Positions 42,103-57,097 of a stretch of DNA of 64,000 bases are shown piece by piece. This DNA is from Acidobacteriota bacterium (GTDB lineage: Bacteria > Acidobacteriota > Thermoanaerobaculia > UBA5066): contig JAKOVQ010000003.1 of NCBI GenBank assembly GCA_029781975.1, positions 124,001 to 188,000 of the forward strand. The letters are read 5' to 3'. Made by a program: the position numbers and the translations under genes. Below the pieces are notes generated by a model, which ran no database searches, was not told the origin of the DNA, and saw only the letters and a list, made by a program, of their open reading frames with translations. Each line of letters opens with the position of its first letter. Within the stretch, counting starts at the first letter, position 1.

Positions 42103-43359
42103 CTAGAAGCCGAAGGAGTAGCCCACCTCGAAGTCCCACTGGTCCATCTTCAGCGTGATCTGCTGCTGGCCGGGGGCCTCGAGGGAGTTCGGGCCGGTGA
42201 CGCTGTTCGAGAAGGCGCGCGTGACCGCGAGCTGGAGCGTGTTCCCCTTGCTGACCGTCCACCCGAGGCCGATCGTCGCGTGCTGCTCGACGACGCCGGG
42301 GGCGAGGATGTTGAAGAGCATCTCCGACTCGGGGATCGGCTGCTTGCCGGTGGCGTAGCCCGCGCGCAGGGTGATCGCGTCGGTCGCCTTCCACTGGACG
42401 CCGAGCTTGTAGACGGTCATGTCCTTCCAGCCGAACCCCGCGCCCTCGTCGTCGCCGAGGCGCGCCTTCATCAGGTTCGGGAGCATCGGGTTGCCGACCG
42501 ACTTCTCCTTGCTGAAGTAGATCTGCTGGACGTCGAAGGCGACGGTGAGGCACTTCGTGGGCTTGACGGCGAGGCCGACCGTCCAGTTCGCCGGGTCGTC
42601 GAAGTAGCCCTGCTCGGCGAAGAGGCCGGCGTAGTCCTTGAGCTTCCCGTACCTCACCTCGGTCTGGTAGGAGGCGCCGATCGTGAGCCACGGCGTGAAC
42701 CTGCCCATGTAGCCGATCCGCGCGCCGTACCCGAACGAGGTCGAGTAGCCGTTGTCGGTGAGCCGGGTCGCGTCGGCGGAGAACGGGCCGAACGCGTTGA
42801 GGCCGTACGCCTTGAAGCGCTGCCACGAGACCATCGGGCCGATGCCGACCGCGTGGTTCTCGCCGAACCTGTGGGCCCAGGTCGGCATCACGTAGAACTT
42901 GCCCATGTCGATCCCGGTCGGGCTGTATCCGAAGACGGGGGACTCATACGTGGTGTTCATCCCGCCGTTGGCGTAGACGGAGACCCCGATCGAGTCGTCC
43001 TTCCCCACCATCCAGTTCGCGCCCATGTTCGGGACGAGGAAGGCGCGGGTCTCGCTGCGGACCGTGCCGGGGGCGAGGCCGAACGTGCCGGGGTAGCCGG
43101 AGGGATTCCCGGTCACGGTGAACTCGCGGTCGGGGCTGAAGAGCGCCAGGCCGAGGTCGTACCCGTGCCCCACGAAGACCATGGAGGCGGGGTTGGTCGC
43201 GGCGGAGAGGGTGTTGGTCGGGACGGCCACGCCGGTGCCGCCCATCCCCTTGGACGGCGTGCCGTAGCCCAGGAGGAAGTAGCCGTCCGTGGCGAGGGCA
43301 GCCGGGGCCGCGACCAGGAGCAGGGCGATCGTGCCCGCGGCGAGACGCTTCGATGTCAT
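42103..43359 (-). CDS. FadL/OmpP1-family outer membrane transporter
   Basis: 418 residues. The signal peptide ends at AALATDG. GYGTPSKGMGGTGVAVPTNTLSAATNPASM is the family's N-terminal plug/hatch signature, and the protein ends in a beta-strand with C-terminal Phe (VGYSFGF), the outer-membrane assembly signal. FadL-like channels import hydrophobic compounds such as long-chain fatty acids. The neighbours are sulfur genes on one side, while beta-oxidation genes lie 2 kb on the other, so the cargo is more likely fatty acids. It is separated from the upstream sulfur operon by a terminator. Confidence 0.88.
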   Translation of the reverse strand: MTSKRLAAGTIALLLVAAPAALATDGYFLLGYGTPSKGMGGTGVAVPTNTLSAATNPASMVFVGHGYDLGLALFSPDREFTVTGNPSGYPGTFGLAPGTVRSETRAFLVPNMGANWMVGKDDSIGVSVYANGGMNTTYESPVFGYSPTGIDMGKFYVMPTWAHRFGENHAVGIGPMVSWQRFKAYGLNAFGPFSADATRLTDNGYSTSFGYGARIGYMGRFTPWLTIGASYQTEVRYGKLKDYAGLFAEQGYFDDPANWTVGLAVKPTKCLTVAFDVQQIYFSKEKSVGNPMLPNLMKARLGDDEGAGFGWKDMTVYKLGVQWKATDAITLRAGYATGKQPIPESEMLFNILAPGVVEQHATIGLGWTVSKGNTLQLAVTRAFSNSVTGPNSLEAPGQQQITLKMDQWDFEVGYSFGF

Positions 43360-43480: not shown

Positions 43481-44662
43481 TCAGCACCCGCCCCCCTTCT
43501 TCGGGGCGGCGGCGGGCGCGACGGCGCGGACCTGGAGCTTCGGGGCCTCGGCGGCCTTCGCGCCGGTGAAGTAGCCGTGGAGCGCGCTCCTCATCCGGAA
43601 CGCCGCGATCAGGGCGGGGGTCGGGCTCTCGGGGGTCGTCGGCGCGGTGAGCACGGCCTTCTGCCAGCCCTCGAACCCGCCGGCGAGGACCAGGACCTCG
43701 CCGGGGTAGCGCAGGACCCCCTCCGGGAGCTTCGCGCCGTCCGCGGCCCCGTAGGCGACGAGGGGGCGCGTGGCGGGGAGGGCGAGGAGGAACTTCCCGG
43801 TCGGGTCGTCGGGGGGCATGGTCATGGCTCCCGGGATCCGGGCCTTCGCGGCCTCCTCCGGGCTCCGGAGGTCGAGGAGCCACAGCCCGTCGGGGACCTG
43901 GACGATCCGCTGGGCGAGGGCCACGGGGCCGATCGCTCCCGGGGCCTTCTCGGCGACGGCGGCCTTCGGGGACGGGAGCGCGACGGTGACGAGGCCGAGG
44001 ACGGCGGCGGCGCCGAAGCCCGCGAAGACCCGGTTGCGGAGCGCGGGGGACCCGGCGGGGAGCGGCTCGCCCGCCTTCCTCGTGAAGATCGCCTCGAGCT
44101 TCTCGCCTCCGAGGAACGAGCCGACCGCCATGACGACGACCGCCGCCGCGACCACCGCGAACGGGACGCCGATCAGCTGCGGGAGCGTCACCGAGCCCAT
44201 CGCGCCGCTCTCGTAGAACCCCTCGAGCGGGGAGTAGACGAAGCCGAACGCCAGCGAGCCGATCGTGACGCCGACGATCGAGAGGAGGCCGTCGAGGTGC
44301 CCGGAGGCCATCGCCACGACCCCGGTGCCGGGGCAGTAGCCCGAGACGATGAAGCCGGCGCCCAGGAGGAGCCCGCCGACCACGTGCGGCCCGAGGAAGG
44401 TCTCGGGGACCGTGACCATCGAGAGGTCGAGGAAGCCGAAGCCCGAGAGGATCCCGAGCCCCGCGCAGGCGGTGACGATCGCGCTGAACATCACCTTCAG
44501 GACGCGCGTGTCGGTGAGGTAGAACTGCGCCGCCAGGTTCCTCGCGTTCCCGAAGCCGGCCCGCTCGAGGACGAAGCCGAAGAAGAAGCCGATGAGGGTC
44601 CCGGCGAGGAGCCCCGTCGTCGTCGAGAAGAGGTCGTGCATGTAGAGCGGCAGGACGCTCAT
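43481..44662 (-). CDS. YeeE/YedE transporter half fused to a Cys-less rhodanese domain with a GGC tail (left copy)
   Basis: 393 residues. The first 180 residues are a YeeE/YedE membrane half with the thiosulfate-relay-type motif SGYCPGTGV (C110). A further hydrophobic segment at 212-230 leads to a rhodanese-like domain (about 245-345: VPDGLWLLDLRSPEEAAKARIPGA, VLVLAGGFEGWQ). At the catalytic loop the sequence reads LVAYGAADGAK, so the Cys is replaced by G305. The protein ends in a low-complexity Ala/Pro/Lys linker and ...KKGGGC, with Cys as the last residue. The flanking charges (LRNR before the segment) put the rhodanese domain outside the cytoplasm by the positive-inside rule. It overlaps the short half gene by four bases (ATGA). 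Confidence 0.85.
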   Translation of the reverse strand: MSVLPLYMHDLFSTTTGLLAGTLIGFFFGFVLERAGFGNARNLAAQFYLTDTRVLKVMFSAIVTACAGLGILSGFGFLDLSMVTVPETFLGPHVVGGLLLGAGFIVSGYCPGTGVVAMASGHLDGLLSIVGVTIGSLAFGFVYSPLEGFYESGAMGSVTLPQLIGVPFAVVAAAVVVMAVGSFLGGEKLEAIFTRKAGEPLPAGSPALRNRVFAGFGAAAVLGLVTVALPSPKAAVAEKAPGAIGPVALAQRIVQVPDGLWLLDLRSPEEAAKARIPGAMTMPPDDPTGKFLLALPATRPLVAYGAADGAKLPEGVLRYPGEVLVLAGGFEGWQKAVLTAPTTPESPTPALIAAFRMRSALHGYFTGAKAAEAPKLQVRAVAPAAAPKKGGGC

Positions 44663-45180
44663 CGCCACTCCCTCCTCACGAGCGGGGCGACGAGGTAGCC
44701 GCCCGCGAAGACGCACATCATGAAGATCCACGACCCGAGCGAGAGGACCGCTCCCCCCGTCAGCGCCTGGCCCGAGGTGCAGCCCCGCGCGAGGCGGGCG
44801 GCGAAGCCCATCAGGATCCCGCCGACGACCGCGTAGGCGAGGCGCCTGGCGGTCGTCGTGTTCGGCCCCTTGACGACGCCGGGCTTGAAGCGGCCGGCGG
44901 AGTACGCGGCGACGAGGCCGCCGAGGAAGACGCCCAGGACCTCGAAGACCATCCAGTCCTCGAGGACGTGCTTGCCGGGGCCGACGTACTGGCTGAAGTA
45001 CCCGTTCGCCTCGGTCGCCTTCGGGGCGAGGAGGTGCAGGGCTCCGATGCCGAGGCGCGTCGGCGCGCTCGACGAGCCGAGCCCGAACCCCATGACGAGG
45101 AACGAGCCGAGGAGGACGAGGCCGAGGACGACCCCGGCCACGTACGGGTTCCAGAGGGGCCTTTCGGCGGGAGGCTGCAC
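44659..45180 (-). CDS. YeeE/YedE transporter short half (left copy)
   Basis: 173 residues from the GTG at 45180, which follows GAGAGGTG; a longer open frame upstream is antisense noise. Four to five hydrophobic segments. ARLARGCTSGQALTGGA (C134) is the conserved YeeE motif with the relay Cys, and YFSQYVGPGKHVLEDWMVFEVLG is a shared loop. In single-chain TsuA-like transporters both halves are joined; here they are separate genes. It lies 11 bp downstream of the NrfD-like gene and overlaps the fused long half. Confidence 0.85.
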   Translation of the reverse strand: MQPPAERPLWNPYVAGVVLGLVLLGSFLVMGFGLGSSSAPTRLGIGALHLLAPKATEANGYFSQYVGPGKHVLEDWMVFEVLGVFLGGLVAAYSAGRFKPGVVKGPNTTTARRLAYAVVGGILMGFAARLARGCTSGQALTGGAVLSLGSWIFMMCVFAGGYLVAPLVRREWR

Positions 45181-45191
45181 CGGTTCACCTC

Positions 45192-46166
45192 TCACGGGAG
45201 GAAGCGGAAGGCCGAGGCCTGTCCGGCGGCGAGGAGGATCCAGCGGAGGGCGAAGCCGCCGGCCAGGATCAGGACGGGGATGGCGGCGACGAACGGGAGG
45301 TGGCGGCGGGCCTCGAGGATCTCCATGACGAGCGGCACCAGGAGCCCGGCGACGACGACGCACGACCAGAAGACGGCCGTGTAGGGGCCGCCCAGGAAGC
45401 CGTGCGCGGCCCAGCGGCCCGCCTCGCCGGCGGTGGCCCAGCCGAGGAGCATCAGGACGATGAGGGAGAGCTCGGCGACGATGGCGACGAGGTCCCAGCG
45501 GACGAGGGTCTTCCGCTCGTCGGGGTCGAGGCGGGGGAGGAGGAGGAGGAAGGCGGCGCCGGTGGAGATCCCCGAGGCGAGGAAGAGCGGCCCCAGGACC
45601 GCGCTGTTCCAGAGGATCCGGGACGGCATCGTCCCCAGGAGGAGGCCGGTGTAGACGCCGAGCCCGACCCCCATCACGGCGCTCGTGACGAGGAGGGGCT
45701 TGCGACCCGCGTCGGCCCAGCGGAAGAGGGTCGCCAGGAGGCCCGAGAGGGGGGCCGGAGTCCTGCCGCGGAGCCAGCCGCGCTGCTCGTCGTCGAGGGA
45801 CCCGAGGCCGAACAGGAGGCCGACGGGGTAGATCAGGACGAGGATCCATGCGCCCCACGACATCGGGGAGGTGGGGTGGAAGAAGGCGTAGAAGCGCCAG
45901 GCCCACAGCTTGTGGGCCAGGTCGAGCCAGAGCGCGAGCATGCCGACCGACAGGAGCCCGAGCGCGACGAACGGCATCGTCCGGAGGAGGGAGGAGCGCG
46001 GCTTCTCTCCGCGCCTTAGCTCGAGGCCCGCGGTGAGGAAGAAGATCCCCGCCACGAGGCCCCCGAGGAAGAGGTAGACGACGATCTCCCAGCCCCAGAC
46101 GTGGAGCGTCGGGTCGATCTGCGGGTTGTGACGGGTGGTGACGGACTCGACGAGCTGCTGGATCAT
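45192..46166 (-). CDS. NrfD/PsrC-type quinone-interacting membrane subunit
   Basis: 324 residues with eight hydrophobic segments, the NrfD/PsrC fold. The amphipathic N-terminal loop and GWEIVVYLFLGGLVAGIFFLTAG are typical. PsrC-like subunits exchange electrons between membrane quinones and the iron-sulfur subunit. It is seven bases downstream of the four-cluster ferredoxin gene. Confidence 0.9.
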   Translation of the reverse strand: MIQQLVESVTTRHNPQIDPTLHVWGWEIVVYLFLGGLVAGIFFLTAGLELRRGEKPRSSLLRTMPFVALGLLSVGMLALWLDLAHKLWAWRFYAFFHPTSPMSWGAWILVLIYPVGLLFGLGSLDDEQRGWLRGRTPAPLSGLLATLFRWADAGRKPLLVTSAVMGVGLGVYTGLLLGTMPSRILWNSAVLGPLFLASGISTGAAFLLLLPRLDPDERKTLVRWDLVAIVAELSLIVLMLLGWATAGEAGRWAAHGFLGGPYTAVFWSCVVVAGLLVPLVMEILEARRHLPFVAAIPVLILAGGFALRWILLAAGQASAFRFLP

Positions 46167-46173
46167 CTCGGCC

Positions 46174-46734
46174 TCACACCAGGAAGTAGAGGTTCGGCTC
46201 GGCGCCCGACTCGGGGTGGGCGACCTTCGACTTCCGCGTCCTCAGGAGGCGCGAGACGGCGGAGTCGGGGTCGTGGGCGTCGCCGAAGGTCAGCGTCCCG
46301 GTCGGGCAGACCGTCACGCAGGCGGGCATCAGCCCCTTCTGGACCCGGTGGAGGCAGAAGGTGCACTTGTCGACGTAGCCGTCGGGGTGGACGAAGCGCG
46401 CGTCGTACGGGCAGGCGGAGATGCAGGCCTTGCACCCCGAGCACTTGCCGTGGGTCACGAGGACGGTCCCCCCCTCGGCCACCCAGGAGGCTCCCGTCGG
46501 GCAGTTCTTCACGCAGGGGGCCTCGGTGCAGTGGTTGCACCGCTCGGAGCGGATCTCGGCGGAGAGGACGGGGAACTCTCCCCGGACCTCCTCGACGACC
46601 CAGTCCCGGCAGAAGCCGTCGGGGACGGCGTTCTCTCCCTTGCAGGCGAGGACGCACGCCTTGCAGCCGACGCACTGGCGGGTGTCGACGGTCATGACGT
46701 AGCGCCTGGAGGCGGTCGTGGTCGCGGCGCTCAT
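46174..46734 (-). CDS. Four-cluster ferredoxin subunit (PsrB/PhsB-like)
   Basis: 186 residues with four cysteine sets: CVGCKACVLAC, CNHCTEAPCVKNCP, CSGCKACISACP and CTFCLHRVQKGLMPACVTVCP. This is the pattern of the electron-transfer subunit of CISM-type molybdoenzymes, bridging the catalytic subunit and the quinone-reactive membrane subunit. There is one base between it and the catalytic subunit gene. Confidence 0.93.
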   Translation of the reverse strand: MSAATTTASRRYVMTVDTRQCVGCKACVLACKGENAVPDGFCRDWVVEEVRGEFPVLSAEIRSERCNHCTEAPCVKNCPTGASWVAEGGTVLVTHGKCSGCKACISACPYDARFVHPDGYVDKCTFCLHRVQKGLMPACVTVCPTGTLTFGDAHDPDSAVSRLLRTRKSKVAHPESGAEPNLYFLV

Positions 46735-46735
46735 C

Positions 46736-48988
46736 TCAGGCCTCCGCCGCCGGGGCGGCCGCCGCGGCGGCGCCGGCCTTCTCGACGGTCACGAAGTTGA
46801 CGCTCATCCCGGTCGAGCCGGCGACGGGGTCGACCTCGACCTTCGTGACGAGCCGCGAGTCGTCGAGGCCGCGCCCCTTGGCGAACCTCAGCCCGGGGCT
46901 CTCGTGCCCGTAGCCGTGGACGACGAAGACGCAGTCGGGGCGGATCCGCTGCGTCGCCTTGAGACGGGTCGGCTGCGAGCGGACGCCGTCCTGGTTGACG
47001 AGGACGACCTCGTCGCCGTTCGCCAGGCCGCGCTCGCGGGCGGCCCGGGCGTTCATCCAGACCTCGTTCTCCGCGTAGACCTCGGAGAGGAAGCGGTTGT
47101 TCGTCGTCCGGCCGAACGTGTGGGTCGGCGTCCGTCCGAAGAGGAGCCGGAACTGCCCGTCGGCGGGCTGCGGGTGCCGCGTGTAGGGGGGGAGCGGCGG
47201 CAGGCCCGCCTCGGCCATCCGCGCCGAGTAGAGCTCGATCTTCTTCGTCGCGGTCCCGAACGCCAGCTCGAGGCCGTCCTCGGTCGTCACCGGGACCTTC
47301 TTCCCGCGGAGGACGCCCTTCGTCCGGAGCGCCTTCACGTCGACGCCCCCCTTCTCGAGCCGGGCGACGACCATCTTCTCGGCGTCGTCCCAGGGGAAGT
47401 ACGACCCCAGGTCCATCCGGTTGGCGAGCTCCTTCGCGATCCACCAGCCCGGCTTGCTCTCGGCCAGGGGCGGGACGACCGGCTGCCGGATGGCGAGGAA
47501 CGGCTCCGACCACGGGGTCGGGCCGACGTCGTCCCACCTCTCCAGGTAGGTCGCCTCGGGAAGGACCACGTCGGCATAGCCGGTGATCTCGGCCGGGAGG
47601 ACGTCGATGGCGACGAGCAGCTCGAGGTGCTGGATCGCGTCGAGCGTCTGCTGGCGCTGGGGGAGGGCCTGGATCAGGTTCGTCCCGTAGACGATCCACC
47701 CCTTGATCGGGCAGCCGGGTCCGCCGACCCGGCCGGGGATCGTCGCGTCGCAGACGCCGTGGGAGAGGACCTCGTCGGCGAAGGGGTAGACGACGCCGTC
47801 CGGGTGGTCCTGCGCCGTCTTCGCCGGCGCGGCGTAGGGGGGGACGGGGTAGGGCGGAACCGACATCGATGTGGGGATGAAGAAGCCGCCGCGGCGGCCC
47901 CACGACCCGAGGAGCGCGTTGAGGATGGCGATCGCCCGCGAGCGCTGGACGTCGTCGCCGTACCACGTCGTGTGCCGTCCGGGGTGGACGAGGGAGGCGG
48001 GACGGGCCCCGGCGATGACGCGCGCCGTCTCGACGATCAGCTCGGGGGCGATCGACGTCTCGGCCCACGCCCACTCGGGGGTCTTGTCCTCGAGGTGCTT
48101 CTTCAGCTCGTCGAAGCCGGTCGCGTACTTCTCGACGTACTCGCGGTCGTAGAGCCCCTCGGCGACGATGACGTGCGCCCACGCCAGGAGGAGCGCGAGG
48201 TCGGTCCCGGGCTTGATGGGGAGCCAGTACCTCGCCTTCCCCGCGGCGGTGGAGTAGCGCGGGTCGACCACGATGACGGTCGCCCCGTTCGCGACCGCGC
48301 GGGCGAAGTCCTGGACCTGGGTGTTGTGCATGTTCTCGCCGAGGTGCGAGCCGACGAGCGTGATGCAGCGGCTGTTGGCGATGTCGAGGACCTCGGGGGA
48401 GCCGACCGGCGAGCCGAACGTCAGCTGGAAGCCGACCTCGCGCGGGCCGCGGCACTGGCCGTACGAGGGCGCGGTGACGTTGCCCGACCCGTAGGCGAAG
48501 AGGAGGTGCTTGAAGAACGTCCCGCCGTACCCGTGCGAGAAGAGCGCCACCTTCTCCGGGCCGCAGGTCTTCTTGATCCGGAGGAGCTTCTCGGCGGTGA
48601 AGTCGAGCGCCTTCTCCCAGGAGACCTCCTCGAACTCCTGGCCGCCGCGCTTCTTCGAGCGGCGGAGGAGCGGCTTCTTGAGCCGGTCGGGGTCGTACAG
48701 GAGGCCGACCCCGCCGGTGCCGCGCGGGCAGAGGTGGCCGCGCGAGAGGGGGTGCTCGGGGTTCCCGACGATCTTGGTGACCTTCCCGTCCCTGACGTGC
48801 GCGAGGATCCCGCACTTCCAGAAGCAGAGCTCGCAGAAGCTCGGAATCACCTGGTCGCCGTCGGTCCTCGGGTCGGGGACGACGTCGCGGTCGAGGCCCC
48901 ACCACTTCGTGGTGACCCCCGATCCGAGAGCGACGGCGCCGACGCCCGTTCCCCCGATCTTGATGAACTCACGCCGGGTGCTGACCAT
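46736..48988 (-). CDS. Molybdopterin oxidoreductase catalytic subunit (PsrA/PhsA-like)
   Basis: 750 residues from the ATG at 48988, which has GGAGGTGG upstream. It starts with a twin-arginine signal, STRREFIKIGG, so the complex is exported folded. The first 4Fe-4S cluster is held by CELCFWKC (about 52-59) and the later Cys in LCPRG. GQCRGPREVGF near residue 155 supplies the likely molybdenum-ligand Cys. GSHLGENMHNTQ and VVDPRYSTAA are MGD-binding. PsrA/PhsA/TtrA relatives reduce polysulfide, thiosulfate or tetrathionate at the periplasmic face; the surrounding sulfur genes support such a substrate, but the exact one cannot be read. Confidence 0.9.
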   Translation of the reverse strand: MVSTRREFIKIGGTGVGAVALGSGVTTKWWGLDRDVVPDPRTDGDQVIPSFCELCFWKCGILAHVRDGKVTKIVGNPEHPLSRGHLCPRGTGGVGLLYDPDRLKKPLLRRSKKRGGQEFEEVSWEKALDFTAEKLLRIKKTCGPEKVALFSHGYGGTFFKHLLFAYGSGNVTAPSYGQCRGPREVGFQLTFGSPVGSPEVLDIANSRCITLVGSHLGENMHNTQVQDFARAVANGATVIVVDPRYSTAAGKARYWLPIKPGTDLALLLAWAHVIVAEGLYDREYVEKYATGFDELKKHLEDKTPEWAWAETSIAPELIVETARVIAGARPASLVHPGRHTTWYGDDVQRSRAIAILNALLGSWGRRGGFFIPTSMSVPPYPVPPYAAPAKTAQDHPDGVVYPFADEVLSHGVCDATIPGRVGGPGCPIKGWIVYGTNLIQALPQRQQTLDAIQHLELLVAIDVLPAEITGYADVVLPEATYLERWDDVGPTPWSEPFLAIRQPVVPPLAESKPGWWIAKELANRMDLGSYFPWDDAEKMVVARLEKGGVDVKALRTKGVLRGKKVPVTTEDGLELAFGTATKKIELYSARMAEAGLPPLPPYTRHPQPADGQFRLLFGRTPTHTFGRTTNNRFLSEVYAENEVWMNARAARERGLANGDEVVLVNQDGVRSQPTRLKATQRIRPDCVFVVHGYGHESPGLRFAKGRGLDDSRLVTKVEVDPVAGSTGMSVNFVTVEKAGAAAAAAPAAEA

Positions 48989-49138
48989 CTCCACCTCCAC
49001 CCAGGTCCGAACCGTTCCGGGCGAGGAGATCAAGAAGCGGGCCAGCGGGGCGCGAGCCGCGAAGGACCTGCATCGGCATGGCTTGCGGCGGATCGGAGAC
49101 CGCGTCGCTGCAACGCAACGTCGCGGACGCGACTTTTC

Positions 49139-49169
49139 GTTTCACGGTTCTTTCGGTGCTTCGTGAAAC
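49139..49169. promoter_or_regulatory. Inverted repeat GTTTCACG/CGTGAAAC near the end of the DsrC-like gene
   Basis: Two 8-base arms (49139-49146 and 49162-49169) are separated by 15 bases. They overlap the last codons of the DsrC-like gene and lie about 150 bases before the molybdoenzyme gene. No T-run follows, so this may be a regulator site or an RNA stem that tunes the downstream genes, not a terminator. Confidence 0.4.
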
Positions 49170-49483
49170 ATCCCGTCGCGTCGGCGGGCGTCGGGAGCCC
49201 GGCGCAGAGGCCGCATCCCGGCGATCTCCGCGATCACCCGTCGCGCGCCGCCGGGGAAGAGGGCCTCGATCTCGGCGCGGGCCACGCCGGTCCTCCTCGC
49301 CAGGACGGAGGCGTCCGGAAGGTGCCGGGTCCTCAGGCATTCCTCGCGGGCGCAGCCGAGGATCTGCCAGTGGGCGGGGGTGAGGTGGATGCCGTGCCGC
49401 CGGGCCGCCGCGGCGGCGCTGTCGGGCGTCCAGTCGGGGCCGCCGCAGCGGCGCGCTCCGGGGCTCGCGGAGGGGGAGCTCAC
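49142..49483 (-). CDS. DsrC/TusE-like protein without the C-terminal cysteines
   Basis: 113 residues from a GTG at 49483. RRHGIHLTPAHWQILGCAREE (29-48) matches the DsrC/TusE pattern G-I-x-L-T-x-x-H-W, and EIEALFPGGARRVIAEIAGM (71-90) matches the family's L-F-P-x-G-P-x-x-x-A-x-x-I-A-G segment. In true DsrC and TusE a Cys near the C-terminus carries sulfur; here the chain runs on to RPLRRAPDARRRDGMFHEAPKEP with no Cys. It is therefore likely a non-catalytic or regulatory paralog. It is upstream of the molybdoenzyme operon on the same strand. Confidence 0.75.
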   Translation of the reverse strand: MSSPSASPGARRCGGPDWTPDSAAAAARRHGIHLTPAHWQILGCAREECLRTRHLPDASVLARRTGVARAEIEALFPGGARRVIAEIAGMRPLRRAPDARRRDGMFHEAPKEP

Positions 49484-51471: not shown

Positions 51472-51513
51472 ATGAAGAGAAGACATCGACTCGCAGAGGA
51501 CGGCGGCAGATGA
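51472..51513 (+). CDS. Possible 13-residue leader peptide coupled to the octaheme cytochrome
   Basis: A short reading frame, MKRRHRLAEDGGR, has a better Shine-Dalgarno sequence (GGAGG, eight bases upstream) than the cytochrome itself. Its TGA overlaps the cytochrome ATG (ATGA at 51510-51513). Such an arrangement allows translational coupling. Arg-rich, no obvious attenuator. Confidence 0.35.
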   Translation: MKRRHRLAEDGGR

Positions 51514-53078
51514 GACGGATCCTGCTCGCGCTCCTCGCCCTGGCCGCCGTCGCGGGCCTTTCCTTCGCCGCCCTCCGGAAGAACGAGGCGGAGCCGACGC
51601 CCCTCGCCCTGCTGAAGGAGCGCTTCGCGCACAAGGTGAAGCCGTCGGTCGACCATACGCGCTTCGCCCAGCTCAAGGTCGCGTTCAAGAGGCCCCAGGA
51701 CGTCACCGCGGCGTGCATCTCCTGCCACAACGGGCGGGCCGCCGAGGTGATGAAGTCGTCGCACTGGAGCTGGGACCGGACGGAGTACGTCGAGGGGAAG
51801 GGGATCCGGGCGATCGGCAAGAAGAACGTCCTGAACAACTTCTGCATCGGGGTGTCGGGCAGCCAGCAGACGTGCGACAAGTGCCACATCGGCTACGGAT
51901 GGGCGGACGCTTCGTTCGACCTGAAGGACCCCCTCAACGTCGACTGCCTCGCCTGCCACGACAACACCTCGACCTACGTGAAGGCTGCAGGGGCGGCGGG
52001 GATGCCCGACCCCTCCGTCGACCTGACCAACGTCGCGCAGCACGTCGGCCGGCCGCAGAGGTCGGACTGTGGCACCTGCCACTTCTTCGGCGGCGGCGGC
52101 AACAACGTGAAGCACGGGGACCTGGAGAAGGCGCTCTTCGACCCCTCGCGCGACGTGGACGTCCACATGGCCTCCGACGGCGTCGACATGCAGTGCGTCG
52201 ACTGCCACACGGCGAGCCAGCACCAGATCCTCGGGAAGGCGTACTCGCTCTCCTCGATGAACCGGAACCGGGTGGAGTGCGAGAGCTGTCACGGCCCGAT
52301 GCCCCACGCCGACGACGTCCTGAACGACCACACCTACAAGGTGGCTTGCCAGACCTGCCACATCCCGACGTACGCCAAGGTCAACCCGACGAAGCTCTCC
52401 TGGGACTGGTCCAAGGCGGGGAAGCTGAAGGACGGCAAGCCGTACGAGCAGAAGGACGCGAGCGGGACCGACGTCTACATGTCGATCAAGGGGTCATTCG
52501 TCTGGGGCAAGAACCTCGAGCCCGACTACGTCTGGTTCGACGGGACGGCCTCGCACTACCTGATCGGCGACACGTTCGACCCGACGAAGCCCCTCGTCCT
52601 GAATCCGCTCGACGGCAGCTACGACGACCCGGACTCGAAGATCGTCCCGGTCAAGATCCATCGGGCCAACCAGATCTACGACACCCGGAACCGGTACCTG
52701 ATCCAGCCGAAGCTCTACTCGTCGCATCCCGGCGACGGCGGCTACTGGGGAGACTTCAGCTGGGAGAGGGCGGCCGAGGAGGGGATGAAGGACGTGGGCC
52801 TCCCGTACAGCGGGCACTACGGGTTCGCCCGGACCGAGATGTACTGGCCCCTGAACCACATGATCGCGCCGAAGGAGAAGGCCGTCTCGTGCGGCGAGTG
52901 CCACACGCGCCAGGGCGGGCGGCTCGCGAAGCTGGGGGGCTTCTACATGCCGGGGCGGGACCGCAGCCCGTGGGTCGATCGCTTCGGCGTCGGTCTCCTC
53001 GCCCTCACCCTCGTCGGCGTAGCGGTCCACGGCGGGGCACGGTTCGCGTTCCGCAACCACGGACAGGGAGAGAAGTGA
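51510..53078 (+). CDS. Octaheme c-type cytochrome, tetrathionate reductase (Otr) family
   Basis: 522 residues. The signal anchor at the N-terminus is followed by eight CxxCH haem sites: CISCH 69, CDKCH 122, CLACH 146, CGTCH 187, CVDCH 229, CESCH 257, CQTCH 280 and CGECH near 460. NNFCIGVSGSQQTCDKCHIGYGW is a family hallmark. A C-terminal hydrophobic segment (VGLLALTLVGVAVHGG) anchors it in the membrane. Otr from Shewanella reduces tetrathionate, nitrite and hydroxylamine in vitro. The gene is one base before the cytochrome b gene, so a quinone-linked periplasmic oxidoreductase is likely. Confidence 0.9.
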   Translation: MRRILLALLALAAVAGLSFAALRKNEAEPTPLALLKERFAHKVKPSVDHTRFAQLKVAFKRPQDVTAACISCHNGRAAEVMKSSHWSWDRTEYVEGKGIRAIGKKNVLNNFCIGVSGSQQTCDKCHIGYGWADASFDLKDPLNVDCLACHDNTSTYVKAAGAAGMPDPSVDLTNVAQHVGRPQRSDCGTCHFFGGGGNNVKHGDLEKALFDPSRDVDVHMASDGVDMQCVDCHTASQHQILGKAYSLSSMNRNRVECESCHGPMPHADDVLNDHTYKVACQTCHIPTYAKVNPTKLSWDWSKAGKLKDGKPYEQKDASGTDVYMSIKGSFVWGKNLEPDYVWFDGTASHYLIGDTFDPTKPLVLNPLDGSYDDPDSKIVPVKIHRANQIYDTRNRYLIQPKLYSSHPGDGGYWGDFSWERAAEEGMKDVGLPYSGHYGFARTEMYWPLNHMIAPKEKAVSCGECHTRQGGRLAKLGGFYMPGRDRSPWVDRFGVGLLALTLVGVAVHGGARFAFRNHGQGEK

Positions 53079-53079
53079 G

Positions 53080-53772
53080 ATGAAGCGCACCTACGTCTAC
53101 CGGTCGTTCGAGAGGTTCTGGCACTGGACCCAGGCGGCCCTCATCCTCTTCCTCGCGGTCACCGGCTTCGAGATCCACGGCTCGTTCCGCTTCTTCGGGT
53201 TCGACCACGCGGTCCACTACCACGCCGTCGCGGCCTGGAGCTTTCTCGTCCTGATCGTCTTCGCGATCTTCTGGCACTTCACGACGGGCGAGTGGAAGCA
53301 GTACGTCCCCACCTGGGAGCACCTGCGGGCGCAGGCCGACTACTACGTCTTCGGCATCTTCCGAAACGCGCCCCACCCGACGAAGAAGACGGTCCTCTCC
53401 AAGCTGAACCCGCTCCAGAAGCTGACCTACGCCGGCCTGAAGCTCCTCGTCATCCCGGGTGTCGTCGTCTCGGGGCTCCTCTACATGTTCTACCGCTATC
53501 CCCAGCGCCACGAGGTCCTCGGGCTCAACGTCCGGAGCCTCCAGACCATCGCGGTCCTCCACACGGCGGGGGCGTTCCTCCTCGTGACCTTCCTCGTCGC
53601 CCACCTCTACCTGATGACGACGGGCCACACGGTGACCTCGAACCTGAAGGCGATGATCACCGGCTACGAAGCCCTGGAGCCCGACCCGCCGCCGGTCCGG
53701 GCGGAGTCGCCGTCCCCTTCCCCTGCCGGCGGGCCCGTGGCGGCGCTCGACGCGATCGCCGTGGCCGACTGA
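53080..53772 (+). CDS. Membrane cytochrome b (quinol dehydrogenase partner of Otr)
   Basis: 230 residues with four hydrophobic segments. Haem-binding histidines sit in SFERFWHWTQAALILFL, HAVAAWSFLVLIVFAIFWHF and HTAGAFLLVTFLVAHLYLM, like di-haem b cytochromes of the formate dehydrogenase/hydrogenase/thiosulfate reductase type. It is one base from the octaheme gene and ten from the YeeE short half, so one operon. It presumably transfers electrons between quinone and the octaheme protein. The last 30 residues are Pro/Ala-rich. Confidence 0.88.
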   Translation: MKRTYVYRSFERFWHWTQAALILFLAVTGFEIHGSFRFFGFDHAVHYHAVAAWSFLVLIVFAIFWHFTTGEWKQYVPTWEHLRAQADYYVFGIFRNAPHPTKKTVLSKLNPLQKLTYAGLKLLVIPGVVVSGLLYMFYRYPQRHEVLGLNVRSLQTIAVLHTAGAFLLVTFLVAHLYLMTTGHTVTSNLKAMITGYEALEPDPPPVRAESPSPSPAGGPVAALDAIAVAD

Positions 53773-53782
53773 GAGGCTTCCG

Positions 53783-54313
53783 ATGAGCTCGAGATACATG
53801 AACCCCTACCTCGCCGGCTTCCTCCTCGGGATGGTCCTCCTGGCGACGATCTTCGTGACGGGCCGCGGTCTCGGCGCGAGCGGCGCGCTGAAGAGCGTGG
53901 TCGTCGCCGCGGTCGACGGGGCGGCACCGGCCCACGCGGAGAGGTCCGCCTTCTACTCCCACTACGTCGGCCCCGGGAAGGAGAGCCCGCTCAAGGCGTG
54001 GCTCGTCTTCGAGGTGGCGGGCGTCCTGATCGGCGCGTTCCTCTCGGGGCTCGTCTCCGACAGGCTCATGCTCGTGACCGAGGCCGGGCCCGGGATCTCC
54101 TCCCGGGCGAGGTGGCTCTTCGCCGCGGCGGGAGGGGCGCTCTTCGGCATCGGCGCCCAGCTGGCTCGCGGCTGCACGAGCGGGGCGGCGCTGAGCGGGA
54201 TGGCCGTCCTGTCGACCGCAGGCTTCGTGACGATGCTCGCGATCTTCGGCACCGGGTACCTCGTGGCCTGGTTCGTCCGCGGCCTCTGGCTGGGCCAGAA
54301 GGCGGAGAGGTGA
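53783..54313 (+). CDS. YeeE/YedE transporter short half (right copy)
   Basis: 176 residues, clearly paralogous to the left copy at 44659: FYSHYVGPGKESPLKAWLVFEVAGVLIG and AQLARGCTSGAALSGMA (C131 as the relay Cys). Four to five hydrophobic segments. The two short halves are similar in length and order but diverged outside these motifs, so this is an old duplication or separate acquisition. Confidence 0.87.
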   Translation: MSSRYMNPYLAGFLLGMVLLATIFVTGRGLGASGALKSVVVAAVDGAAPAHAERSAFYSHYVGPGKESPLKAWLVFEVAGVLIGAFLSGLVSDRLMLVTEAGPGISSRARWLFAAAGGALFGIGAQLARGCTSGAALSGMAVLSTAGFVTMLAIFGTGYLVAWFVRGLWLGQKAER

Positions 54314-54317
54314 CGTC

Positions 54318-55514
54318 GTGGGGCCCTTCGTTCCGGACCTGATCTCCGACCAGCTCAACCTCGTCGTCGCCCTCGTCCTCGGGATCGCCTTCGGGTTCGT
54401 CCTCGAGCAGGCGGGCTTCTCGTCGTCCCGGAGGCTCGCCGGCGTCTTCTACGGGTACGACTTCACGGTCCTGAGGGTCTTCTTCACGGCTGCCGCGACC
54501 GCGATGGCCGGCGTCCTCCTCCTGGGGGCCGCGGGGCTCCTCGACCTCGACGTCATCTTCGTCAACCCGACGTGGCTCGCCCCGGCGATCGTGGGGGGCG
54601 CGATCATGGGTGTCGGGTTCCTCCTCGGCGGCTACTGTCCCGGGACGAGCGTCTGCGCCGCGGCGATCGGCAAGGTCGACGCGATGGCGTTCGTGGGAGG
54701 CGGGCTCCTCGGCATCTTCGGCTTCGCCGAGGTCTACCCGAGGATCCGGACGTTCGACGAGTCGACCTTCCTCGGCCCGATCAAGGTCTACCAGTCCCTC
54801 CACGTCCCGGCCGGCGTCTTCGCCTTCCTCCTCATCGCCGTCGCCGTCGCGGCGTTCGTCGTGACGACCCGGATCGAGCGGAGAGTGAACCCCTCCGGCG
54901 CCCCTTCCCTCCGGTTCCCCGCGGCCTCGCACAGGCTGGCGGGGGCCGGCCTCCTCGGCGTCGGCGTCCTCCTCCTCTTCACCCCCGACTACAAGGGGCG
55001 CCTCCTCGCGAAGGTCTCCGACCCTGCCTTCGCCGCCGCCCACCCGGTAAAGGTGATGACGGTCGACGAGCTCGCCTTCCGGATCGTGGACCGCGAGCCC
55101 CGGCTCCGGATCGTCGACGTGAGGGACCCGAAGGCCTTTGCCGCGCTCGCCCTCCCGGGGTCGGTCAACGGCTCGGTCCGGGACCTCTTCGGCAAGGAGT
55201 GGCGGGAGGTCGTCGGCCCGCTCCACGTCAGGAAGGTGATCGTCGGCGCGGACGAGGCCCAGGAGCGGACGGCGTACCTGCTCCTCCACGAGCTCGGCTA
55301 CGAGAACCTCGCCGTCCTCGAAGGAGGCTTCCCGGCGTTCGAGAGGACGATCCTGGAGCCGATCATGCTCGTCTCGACGGGGAGCCGGTGGGACGGGGAC
55401 GTCCGGCGGTTCCGCGAGTCGGCCCGGACGGAGATCCTCCGGATGGTGAAGGAGGCGAAGGCCTCGGGGCAGAAGAAGCCGAAGAAGGAAAAGAAGATCC
55501 AGGGAGGCTGCTGA
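54318..55514 (+). CDS. YeeE/YedE transporter half fused to a Cys-less rhodanese domain with a GGC tail (right copy)
   Basis: 398 residues from the GTG at 54318 (GGAGAGG upstream). Membrane part 1-185 with LGGYCPGTSVC (C107 and C113). Another hydrophobic segment at 207-222 leads to a rhodanese-like domain (246-345: VDELAFRIVDREPRLRIVDVRDPKAFAALALPG, LAVLEGGFPAFER). The catalytic loop reads VIVGADEAQERTA, with G310 where rhodaneses have Cys. The end is a Lys-rich linker, KKPKKEKKIQGGC, with Cys398 last. It matches the left copy in all three odd features. Confidence 0.87.
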   Translation: MGPFVPDLISDQLNLVVALVLGIAFGFVLEQAGFSSSRRLAGVFYGYDFTVLRVFFTAAATAMAGVLLLGAAGLLDLDVIFVNPTWLAPAIVGGAIMGVGFLLGGYCPGTSVCAAAIGKVDAMAFVGGGLLGIFGFAEVYPRIRTFDESTFLGPIKVYQSLHVPAGVFAFLLIAVAVAAFVVTTRIERRVNPSGAPSLRFPAASHRLAGAGLLGVGVLLLFTPDYKGRLLAKVSDPAFAAAHPVKVMTVDELAFRIVDREPRLRIVDVRDPKAFAALALPGSVNGSVRDLFGKEWREVVGPLHVRKVIVGADEAQERTAYLLLHELGYENLAVLEGGFPAFERTILEPIMLVSTGSRWDGDVRRFRESARTEILRMVKEAKASGQKKPKKEKKIQGGC

Positions 55515-55639
55515 GGCGACGCGCCCCCCCTTCTCGGATAGACTGCCTTCGTCGATTCCCGCTTTCGCGGCTCCGTCGCCCTGGACGAGACCTGCTGCAG
55601 ACGCCGGGCGAGGGCCGCCGCTCGAGGGAAGGAGGCCCG

Positions 55640-57097
55640 ATGTCCCGACTCGTCGTCCTCGGCGCTGGGATCGCGGGACAGACCGCGGCCCTCCACGCGC
55701 GGCGCAAGCTCGGCCGCGACCACGAGGTGGTCGTCGTCTCCCCCAACTCGAGGTGGAACTGGATCCCGTCCAACATCTGGGTCGGCGTCGGCGTGATGAG
55801 GCCCGAGCAGGTGACGTTTCCCCTGCAGCCCGTCTACGAGAAGACCGGGATCACCTTCGTCCAGGCGAAGGCGGTCAGCGTCCACCCCGAGGGCAGGTCG
55901 GGGAGCCCGGGCCCCTACGTCACGGTGGAACAGACGGAGCAGGGGAGGGCCGGGGAGACGGAGATGGTCCCGTACGACTACCTGATCAACGCGACCGGGC
56001 CCAAGCTGAACTTCGGGGCGACGAAGGGCCTCGGTCCCTCGGCGAACAGCCTCTCCGTCTGCACCTACGACCACGCGGCCCACGCGTCGAAGGCCCTGGA
56101 CGAGGCGGTCGAGCGGATGAGGAAGGGGGAGAAGCAGACCCTCCTCGTCGGGACCGGCCACGGGAACTGCACCTGCCAGGGCGCGGCGTTCGAGTACATC
56201 TTCAACGTGGAGTTCGAGCTGCGGCGACGCGGCGTGAGGGAGAAGGCCCGGATCGTCTGGCTCTCGAACGAGCACGAGCTCGGCGACTTCGGGATGGGGG
56301 GGATGTTCATCCGCCGCGGCGGCTACGTCACCCACAGCCGGGTCTTCACGGAGTCGCTCTTCACCGAGCGGGGGATCGAGTGGGTGACCCGCGCCCACGT
56401 CCAGGAGGTCGCCCCGGGCGAGGTCTCCTTCGAGACCCTCGACGGGGAGGAGAGGAGCCTGAAGTTCGACTTCGGGATGCTCCTCCCGCCGTTCTCGGGC
56501 GTCGGGCTGAAGGCGTACGACGCAGCCGGAGGCGACATCACGTCCCGGCTCTTCGCGGCGAATGGCTTCATGCTCGTCGACGGCGACTACGCGAAAAAGC
56601 CCTACGAGGAGTGGTCCCCGGACGACTGGCCGAAGACCTACCAGTCGCCCGCGTACCCGAACGTCTTCGCGGTCGGGATCGCGTTCGCCCCGCCGCACGC
56701 GATCTCCAAGCCGATGACGAGCCCGAAGGGGACGCCGATCTTCCCGACGCCGCCGCGGACCGGCATGCCCTCCGGGGTCATGGCGCGCGAGGTGGCCTTC
56801 AACGTCGTCGACATGATGACCGGGAAGGAGAAGGCGCCGACGCGGAAGGCGTCGCTCGCCCACATGGGGGCCGCGTGCATCGCCTCGGCGGGCGCCAGCC
56901 CGCTGAGGGGGACGGCCGTCTCGATGACGGTCTTCCCGATCATCCCCGACTTCAAGGCCTACCCCGACACGGGGCGGGAGCTCCGCTACACCTCCGGCGA
57001 GATCGGCCTGGCCGGCCACTGGATCAAGCACCTCCTCCACTTCGGCTTCATCTACAAGGCGAAGGCGAACCCTCTCTGGGTCGCGATCCCCGAGTGA
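55640..57097 (+). CDS. sqr: Sulfide:quinone oxidoreductase-like flavoprotein
   Basis: 485 residues. FAD fold: LVVLGAGIAGQTAALHARRKL at the start and YDYLINATGPKLNFG. Redox-active cysteine candidates are C141 (SVCTYDHA), C177 and C179 (NCTCQGAAFEY), with another in GAACIASAG near 420. The C-terminal amphipathic part (HWIKHLLHFGFIYKAK) fits membrane association. SQR oxidises sulfide to polysulfide and reduces quinone. The Cys arrangement differs from the best studied type I/II enzymes, so a divergent type or another sulfur substrate is possible. AGGAG precedes the ATG; 125 bp separate it from the YeeE fusion. Confidence 0.82.
   Translation: MSRLVVLGAGIAGQTAALHARRKLGRDHEVVVVSPNSRWNWIPSNIWVGVGVMRPEQVTFPLQPVYEKTGITFVQAKAVSVHPEGRSGSPGPYVTVEQTEQGRAGETEMVPYDYLINATGPKLNFGATKGLGPSANSLSVCTYDHAAHASKALDEAVERMRKGEKQTLLVGTGHGNCTCQGAAFEYIFNVEFELRRRGVREKARIVWLSNEHELGDFGMGGMFIRRGGYVTHSRVFTESLFTERGIEWVTRAHVQEVAPGEVSFETLDGEERSLKFDFGMLLPPFSGVGLKAYDAAGGDITSRLFAANGFMLVDGDYAKKPYEEWSPDDWPKTYQSPAYPNVFAVGIAFAPPHAISKPMTSPKGTPIFPTPPRTGMPSGVMAREVAFNVVDMMTGKEKAPTRKASLAHMGAACIASAGASPLRGTAVSMTVFPIIPDFKAYPDTGRELRYTSGEIGLAGHWIKHLLHFGFIYKAKANPLWVAIPE

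Follow-up and report, generated by a model that had tools for sequence, protein, structure and literature searches.

Gene content of the locus

The window analyzed in this study is a stretch of 64,000 nucleotides from an Acidobacteriota bacterium (contig JAKOVQ010000003.1). On its minus strand it contains a small gene related to dsrC and tusE, which we refer to as arm-less because its product does not have the C-terminal arm of these proteins, and which is followed 153 bp downstream, on the same strand, by a psrA/phsA-like gene and the rest of a sulfur operon (Table 1). The best NCBIfam match of the PsrA protein is PhsA, with a score of 475 bits that lies under the cut-off of 694. In the available part of the SoxT paper (PMC11582611), proteins of the YeeE family import sulfur or thiosulfate, and the FadL-type protein of the operon may be a route for a hydrophobic sulfur compound. 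A second sulfur-type cluster is located at 51510-57097 on the plus strand and encodes an octaheme cytochrome of the tetrathionate-reductase family, a cytochrome b, a YeeE protein, a YeeE-rhodanese fusion, and a flavoprotein that is a putative SQR. At locus L062, the cytochrome-to-YeeE part of this second cluster type is found directly upstream of psrA.

Table 1. Arm-less gene, psr operon, and elements upstream of psrA, with positions in the window.
Feature	Position	Strand	Remarks
Arm-less DsrC/TusE-like gene without carrier Cys	49142..49483	-	113 codons, GTG start, TGA stop; Pfam and fold match
Palindrome-like site CGCGACGGGATGTTTCA	49164..49180	-	In the last DsrC-like codons; 136 bp upstream of the sigma-54-like box; 3 mismatches to TGAAACNNNNTGTTTCA
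Palindrome-like site TGAAACGAAAAGTCGCG at -100	49128..49144	-	TGA is the DsrC-like stop codon; spacing as the -99/-100 site of relatives; 4 mismatches
Palindrome-like site CGCGACGTTGCGTTGCA at -81	49109..49125	-	Spacing as the -80/-81 site of relatives; 5 mismatches, weak
Sigma-54-like box TGGCCCGCTTCTTGA upstream of psrA	49030..49044	-	TGGC and TCTTG invariant in 6 aligned sequences
psrA/phsA-like molybdopterin oxidoreductase	46736..48988	-	TRREFIK (Tat-like) N-terminus
psrB-like 4Fe-4S subunit	46174..46734	-	Profile match
nrfD/psrC-like membrane subunit	45192..46166	-	Profile match
Short YeeE/YedE-like membrane protein	44659..45170 (start approximate)	-	Resembles YeeE3 homologs
YeeE-rhodanese fusion, PKKGGGC end	43481..44731	-	True start probably near 44660
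FadL/TodX-like outer-membrane protein, 3' of the YeeE-rhodanese gene	42103..43300 (start approximate)	-	Pfam Toluene_X on homologs

The arm-less protein is predicted to have the DsrC/TusE fold

The 113-residue protein matched the Pfam DsrC family (PF04358) with 45.3 bits (E-value 1.3e-11; cut-off 24.9), and the same cut-off was passed by 8 of the 9 arm-less proteins found, the other one being a partial sequence that scored 23.9 bits (L294 in G684). With TIGR03342 (TusE/DsrC/DsvC relay), the score of the window protein was 27.6 bits, under the cut-off of 53.5. AlphaFold2 run without an alignment produced a model of five helices with a mean pLDDT of 76.5 (approximately 90 in the core), and a Myxococcota arm-less member was also modeled as five helices (mean pLDDT of 73). 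Foldseek returned only DsrC proteins at ranks 1 to 8 for the window model, with probabilities of 0.99-1.00 and E-values from 0.003 to 0.23, none of them under 0.001, and VIA-align gave Z-scores of 8.8-10.2 for ranks 1 to 7. The Pfam DsrC scores of the window protein and of the other arm-less members, together with the Foldseek matches, rule out an unrelated family; homology of that kind had been named as a refutation in a sequence-only reading of this DNA, and we looked for it and did not find it. Altogether, the model and the family scores indicate that the window protein has the DsrC/TusE fold predicted by that reading. The HTH-like helices to which it had also pointed are present, but they are general to the DsrC fold and do not single out the window protein; behind the DsrC structures, the window model matches TetR, sigma, and LexA domains (Z-scores of 4-7).

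A kinship of the DsrC-like set with LexA was considered and rejected. The weak PF04358 matches include, besides L020, three proteins that read as lexA-type wHTH proteins (L003, L021, and L022), and the match to the lexA-type N-terminal HTH is perhaps an echo of the shared fold.

The reading frame is intact and has relatives in other genomes. G+C content in the window frame is 0.74 at the first, 0.66 at the second, and 0.88 at the third codon position. An intact ORF in genome G001 encodes its closest homolog, with 51% identity to the window protein over 83 amino acids, and three genomes of another family have intact relatives at 31-38% identity. Because of these intact ORFs in relatives, the window ORF is not a chance frame. 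A frameshifted normal DsrC, the other refutation named in the sequence-only reading, is ruled out because eight relatives are in the same arm-less state and the DsrC arm motif (G[LIVM].[KR]P) was absent from all 9 sequences within 240 bp past the stop codon, read in three frames. The looser pattern [KRQ]P..C was present past the stop codon in 4 of the 9 sequences (window included), always without G[LIVM].[KR]P; such loose matches arise easily by chance in G+C-rich DNA. The window's own genome also encodes a separate canonical DsrC with 2 Cys residues.

The loss extends beyond the carrier cysteine

In A. vinosum DsrC, as described in the available part of the source (PMC3397948), sulfur is bound by the penultimate Cys only. 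The Cys residues of the window protein are at positions 13, 44, and 49, none of them close to the C-terminus, and neither carrier Cys is present, which bears out what had been claimed from the sequence. The penultimate Cys on the C-terminal arm is absent, the DsrC segment ACK.AGL.KPTGCV reads VIAEIAGMRPLRRAP..., and the part of it that contains the second Cys of two-Cys DsrC proteins (ACK.AGL) corresponds to VIAEIAGM, without Cys. We aligned the 9 arm-less proteins with 131 Cys-bearing sequences, leaving out L188, L228, L295, and L177. Ten core residues (W, A, A, L, H, W, R, L, F, and G) are kept in all 9 arm-less proteins. Four other positions conserved in the Cys-bearing sequences are retained in none of them: an Arg (99% of the Cys-bearing sequences), a Lys (89%), a Tyr (96%), and, in the KP arm, the Lys (99%). 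Of two conserved Pro residues, that of the GP motif (99%) is found in 1 of the 9 and that of the KP arm (100%) in 2 of the 9. The carrier column contains a Cys in a single arm-less protein, that of G001, which has tail Cys residues at 95 and 105, one of them placed in this column by the alignment. A relative with a terminal Cys, which had been named as possible counter-evidence, thus exists loosely in G001, but its tail does not have the KP.GC motif. Since the Arg, Lys, Tyr, and Pro residues and the arm are gone beside the Cys, the loss exceeds the terminal Cys, and sulfur carriage of the known kind is therefore not expected.

Association of arm-less genes with psr operons

The search of the window's class covered 148 genomes, 53 of which had a DsrC match, and the matching loci were then fetched. 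Nine arm-less proteins, including that of the window, were found in Acidobacteriota and Myxococcota; within the class, arm-less single-domain proteins are encoded in G000 (window), G001, G022, G025, G052, and G061. The operon type at arm-less genes comprises the Psr molybdoenzyme, NrfD, and paired YeeE with a rhodanese domain, plus FadL in the Acidobacteriota loci checked, and the position of the arm-less gene relative to it varies among genomes. The gene lies 3' of nrfD in a psrA-psrB-yeeE-yeeE/rhodanese-nrfD operon in G022, G025, and G061, 3' of nrfD in G052, where the contig ends inside the operon, and divergent from psrA in the Myxococcota genomes G497, G703, and G684. The proposal that the gene stands at the head of the operon calls for a caveat: in the window a sigma-54-like box separates the gene from psrA, in family f7 the gene lies 3' of nrfD, and in the three Myxococcota it is divergent.

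DsrC matches without the arm motif were located at most 1.5 kb from PsrA, NrfD, or YeeE-rhodanese genes in 8 of 12 cases, versus 1 of 133 matches with the motif (Fisher p 1.1e-9 over all loci read, from related genomes that form approximately three independent lineages); the arm-less search profile drew mostly on operon-linked members, and some locus classifications cover only places with a returned locus (30 in one set and 20 of 37 in another), weaker matches being outside. This count excludes 10 tandem DsrC domains (G129, G134, G142, G152, and G251), includes among the 12, as unlinked, a tandem protein cut by the contig end (L228), and takes G001 as being without the arm motif despite its tail Cys. 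The 4 unlinked matches without the motif are those of G001, G079, L295, and the cut tandem L228. In G001, the arm-less gene is on a psr contig that has two psrA-type genes, at distances of approximately 27 and 37 kb, and in G079 a YeeE-rhodanese gene lies approximately 2 kb from the DsrC-like gene. L295 (G497:C131) is a Cys-less DsrC-like ORF directly 3' of a TusE-type ORF, and no Psr gene was found in the 17 kb of sequence covered. Each of the 6 class genomes that encode a single-domain arm-less protein has a PsrA match, versus 22 of the 142 other class genomes. Seen from the operon's side, the tie is loose: the arm-less gene is found at 2 of 80 PsrA loci (the best 80 of 434, chosen regardless of DsrC, several of them short and cut by the contig end), which rules out linkage to the operon as universal. 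The link to the Psr operon seen in the window recurs in relatives, and judging from these genomes arm-less proteins recur in two phyla in association with one operon type.

In the tree, the G080 and G079 proteins are basal, with weak support, to a group that contains 6 of 7 arm-less proteins, and the G061 protein falls outside this group, with long-branch warnings given. The DsrC-like gene of G080 (L177) keeps the Cys (PKPPQC) and has a YeeE-rhodanese gene on one side and a FadL gene on the other; that of its congener G079 (L188) has a Trp at the Cys place and the same flanks. This pair is possibly a snapshot of the Cys loss and the source of the arm-less type. Tandem two-domain DsrC-like proteins were also observed (L167, L169, L215, L220, and L229), with a domain that has retained the first Cys, the penultimate one being absent; the tandem gene at L169 adjoins a PsrB-like gene.

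The Arg-rich tail and the DNA upstream of psrA

The window protein ends in an Arg-rich tail (RPLRRAPDARRRDGMFHEAPKEP), present in place of the Cys arm as described from the sequence. Among the nine arm-less proteins, this tail is seen in the window only: those of G052, G022, L296, L293, and L294 end at most 4 residues past the AG/GG motif, and those of G025, G061, and G001 carry tails unlike it. The segment that starts at the conserved Trp has a pI of 11.2 in the window protein, versus 5.0-8.8 in the eight others. Because the tail is unique to the window and the charge is not conserved, a functional basic tail is ruled out as a family feature, contrary to the sequence-only reading, and we found no support for binding of the tail to DNA.

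A sigma-54-like box with repeated GAAAC/GTTTC palindromes was observed upstream of psrA in two phyla (window 49030-49180; L062-L066, L293, and L294). In 3 of 5 relatives, palindromes of the TGAAACNNNNTGTTTCA form are located about -99 and -80 relative to the box; in the other 2 the spacings differ. When the window was scanned on the plus strand with up to 4 mismatches, 2 of the 5 places found were in the psrA upstream region. The box and a palindrome (at most 4 mismatches) occur together in 6 of 13 psrA loci of the class, and the pattern is missing in L233, L234, L236, L238, L241, L247, and L250, three of these seven being f7 genomes that carry the arm-less gene. Among 74 psrA loci (six of the 80 being short of upstream sequence), a palindrome with at most 3 mismatches was detected within 320 bp upstream of psrA in 18, versus 1 of 74 control stretches inside psrA, using a consensus that was picked by eye, and thus not blind, from loci that were also counted; a strict sigma-54-like pattern was found upstream of psrA in 14 of the 74. 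In the Myxococcota intergenic regions, GAAAC/GTTTC elements are present in 3 of 3 (L293 by eye) and a near-consensus sigma-54 box in 2 of 3. The box and palindromes are possibly the site of some sigma-54 activator, and psrA may have its own promoter. The simplest reading of the tail would be that the window ORF extends into the upstream regulatory DNA of psrA, the Arg-rich residues being a by-product.

Cys tails of YeeE-rhodanese fusions

All 50 complete YeeE-rhodanese fusions read (at least 330 amino acids) contain a Cys among the three C-terminal residues, mostly as GGGC. Two fusions of this type are encoded in the window, one in the psr operon and the other at 54318-55514 (+). Two to 6 Lys/Arg residues are present among the ten residues that precede the terminal Cys, and the last 160 residues contain no further Cys in 18 of the 50 fusions and a further Cys in 32. 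A further 23 complete pieces are shorter. EGC preceded by Lys/Arg is the C-terminus of five of them, which are separate ORFs, and GGGCSS that of a sixth, a partial fusion; most of the others look like YeeE alone, without a Cys tail. The ggCs sequence is the substrate-binding motif of SoxYZ according to the available part of PMC8190135; the Cys tail recalls this motif and by analogy may act as a swinging sulfur arm.

Candidate role of the arm-less protein

A regulatory or adaptor role, as put forward in the sequence-only reading, remains the best class of explanation and is putative. Within this class, a partner of other proteins ranks first and a transcriptional role second. Most arm-less relatives found adjoin the same sulfur gene cluster, and the protein is therefore probably a helper or sensor of that system and not a carrier. 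The best remaining account, which we put forward tentatively from gene neighborhoods and residue conservation, is that the arm-less protein would be a 'pseudo-TusE' (an RspA-like DsrC paralog), a dedicated non-catalytic cytoplasmic partner of the Psr/YeeE/rhodanese module for sulfur import or respiration. The binding target of such a pseudo-TusE would be another protein in this module, with the rhodanese or YeeE part as the most plausible candidate, and its effect would be to adjust or signal the flow of sulfur, which it would not itself carry. Counted against the partner reading are the loose tie seen from the operon's side, the distance and tail Cys of G001, the L295 gene without a Psr operon, and the variable gene position. 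Since the window's genome also has a two-Cys DsrC, a role of the arm-less protein with that DsrC is conceivable there.

We consider it doubtful that the protein is a transcription regulator or coregulator of the psr operon, its HTH-like DsrC body binding DNA or a sigma-54 activator near psrA. In line with such a role, the arm-less gene of the window borders on the DNA upstream of psrA, those of the three Myxococcota genomes are divergent from psrA, this DNA contains palindromes, with a sigma-54-like box in all of these loci but one from Myxococcota, and TetR, sigma, and LexA domains are matched behind the DsrC proteins. However, the HTH likeness is common to DsrC proteins generally, and neither the putative recognition helix nor the charge is conserved among arm-less proteins. 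In family f7, moreover, the gene lies between nrfD and fadL and both loci read have a gene for a sigma-54 activator upstream of psrA, and the psrA-upstream palindromes occur also in loci without an arm-less gene.

An unlikely explanation is that the gene is a decaying, functionless relic of a TusE-type gene. Its fast evolution (the window and G001 proteins share 51% identity where PsrA shares 82%), the long branches in the tree, and the sporadic presence across genomes and psrA loci would fit this, but nine genomes from two phyla have intact ORFs, the ten core residues are retained in every one of the proteins, and the gene is repeatedly found beside the same operon. It is more improbable still that the protein carries sulfur on one of its remaining Cys residues, for example Cys44 of helix 2 (GCARE): a Cys two residues before the conserved Arg is present in 5 of the 9 arm-less sequences (Ser in 2), but the Cys44 place is variable (Phe in G001, Ala in G061) and sits inside a predicted helix, and the sulfur-holding arm of DsrC/TusE is gone. 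We give very little credence to a two-piece carrier, in which the arm-less DsrC body would be the receptor for the KKGGGC tail of the YeeE-rhodanese protein, so that body and arm are on separate proteins; the conserved Arg and Tyr are lost, and the Cys tail is present also in operons without the arm-less gene. Least probable is a decoy or antagonist of a canonical DsrC encoded elsewhere in the genome: the window's genome has a two-Cys DsrC near a PsrB-like gene (37%, perhaps dsrO), but the arm-less copy is the sole DsrC match, among the matches listed, in G001, G022, G025, G052, and G061.

Relation to known DsrC-family proteins

TusE, a sulfur relay protein with a single Cys, belongs to the same fold family and shares with the arm-less protein the RE motif in helix 2, and TusE-type proteins are mostly the next-best class matches to the arm-less profile after the arm-less ones. 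In contrast to TusE, which has the penultimate Cys and the KP.GC arm, the arm-less protein has neither and has lost the conserved Arg, Lys, Tyr, and Pro; moreover, no TusBCD set is evident in its genomes (PF02635 matches: 0 in the window's genome and 0 to 2 in eight other genomes). DsrC of dissimilatory sulfite reductase has the same fold (2v4j_C, Z-score of 10.2) but differs in the 2 carrier Cys residues, both missing here, and is encoded separately in the window's genome. Venceslau et al. reportedly proposed in 2014 an RspA class for DsrC-family proteins without either Cys. The arm-less protein resembles RspA in belonging to the DsrC family and having neither carrier Cys. In phages, 5 DsrC sequences with neither Cys motif have been described, with alternate functions as an unvalidated hypothesis; these are phage genes for which the available part of the source mentions no tie to a Psr operon (PMC8190135). 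In the open-access literature searched, we recognized no description of an operon-linked group of arm-less DsrC proteins. DsrC-family proteins with neither Cys are already known; what appears to be new is a group without the arm that is associated, in two phyla, with a single type of operon.

What is known of DsrC and TusE centers on a single reactive arm. The recurrence, in two phyla, of an arm-less group next to one sulfur operon would mean that the DsrC body has a second use, separable from sulfur carriage, and these small operon-linked proteins would be direct test material for the proposed 'regulatory' class of DsrC paralogs.
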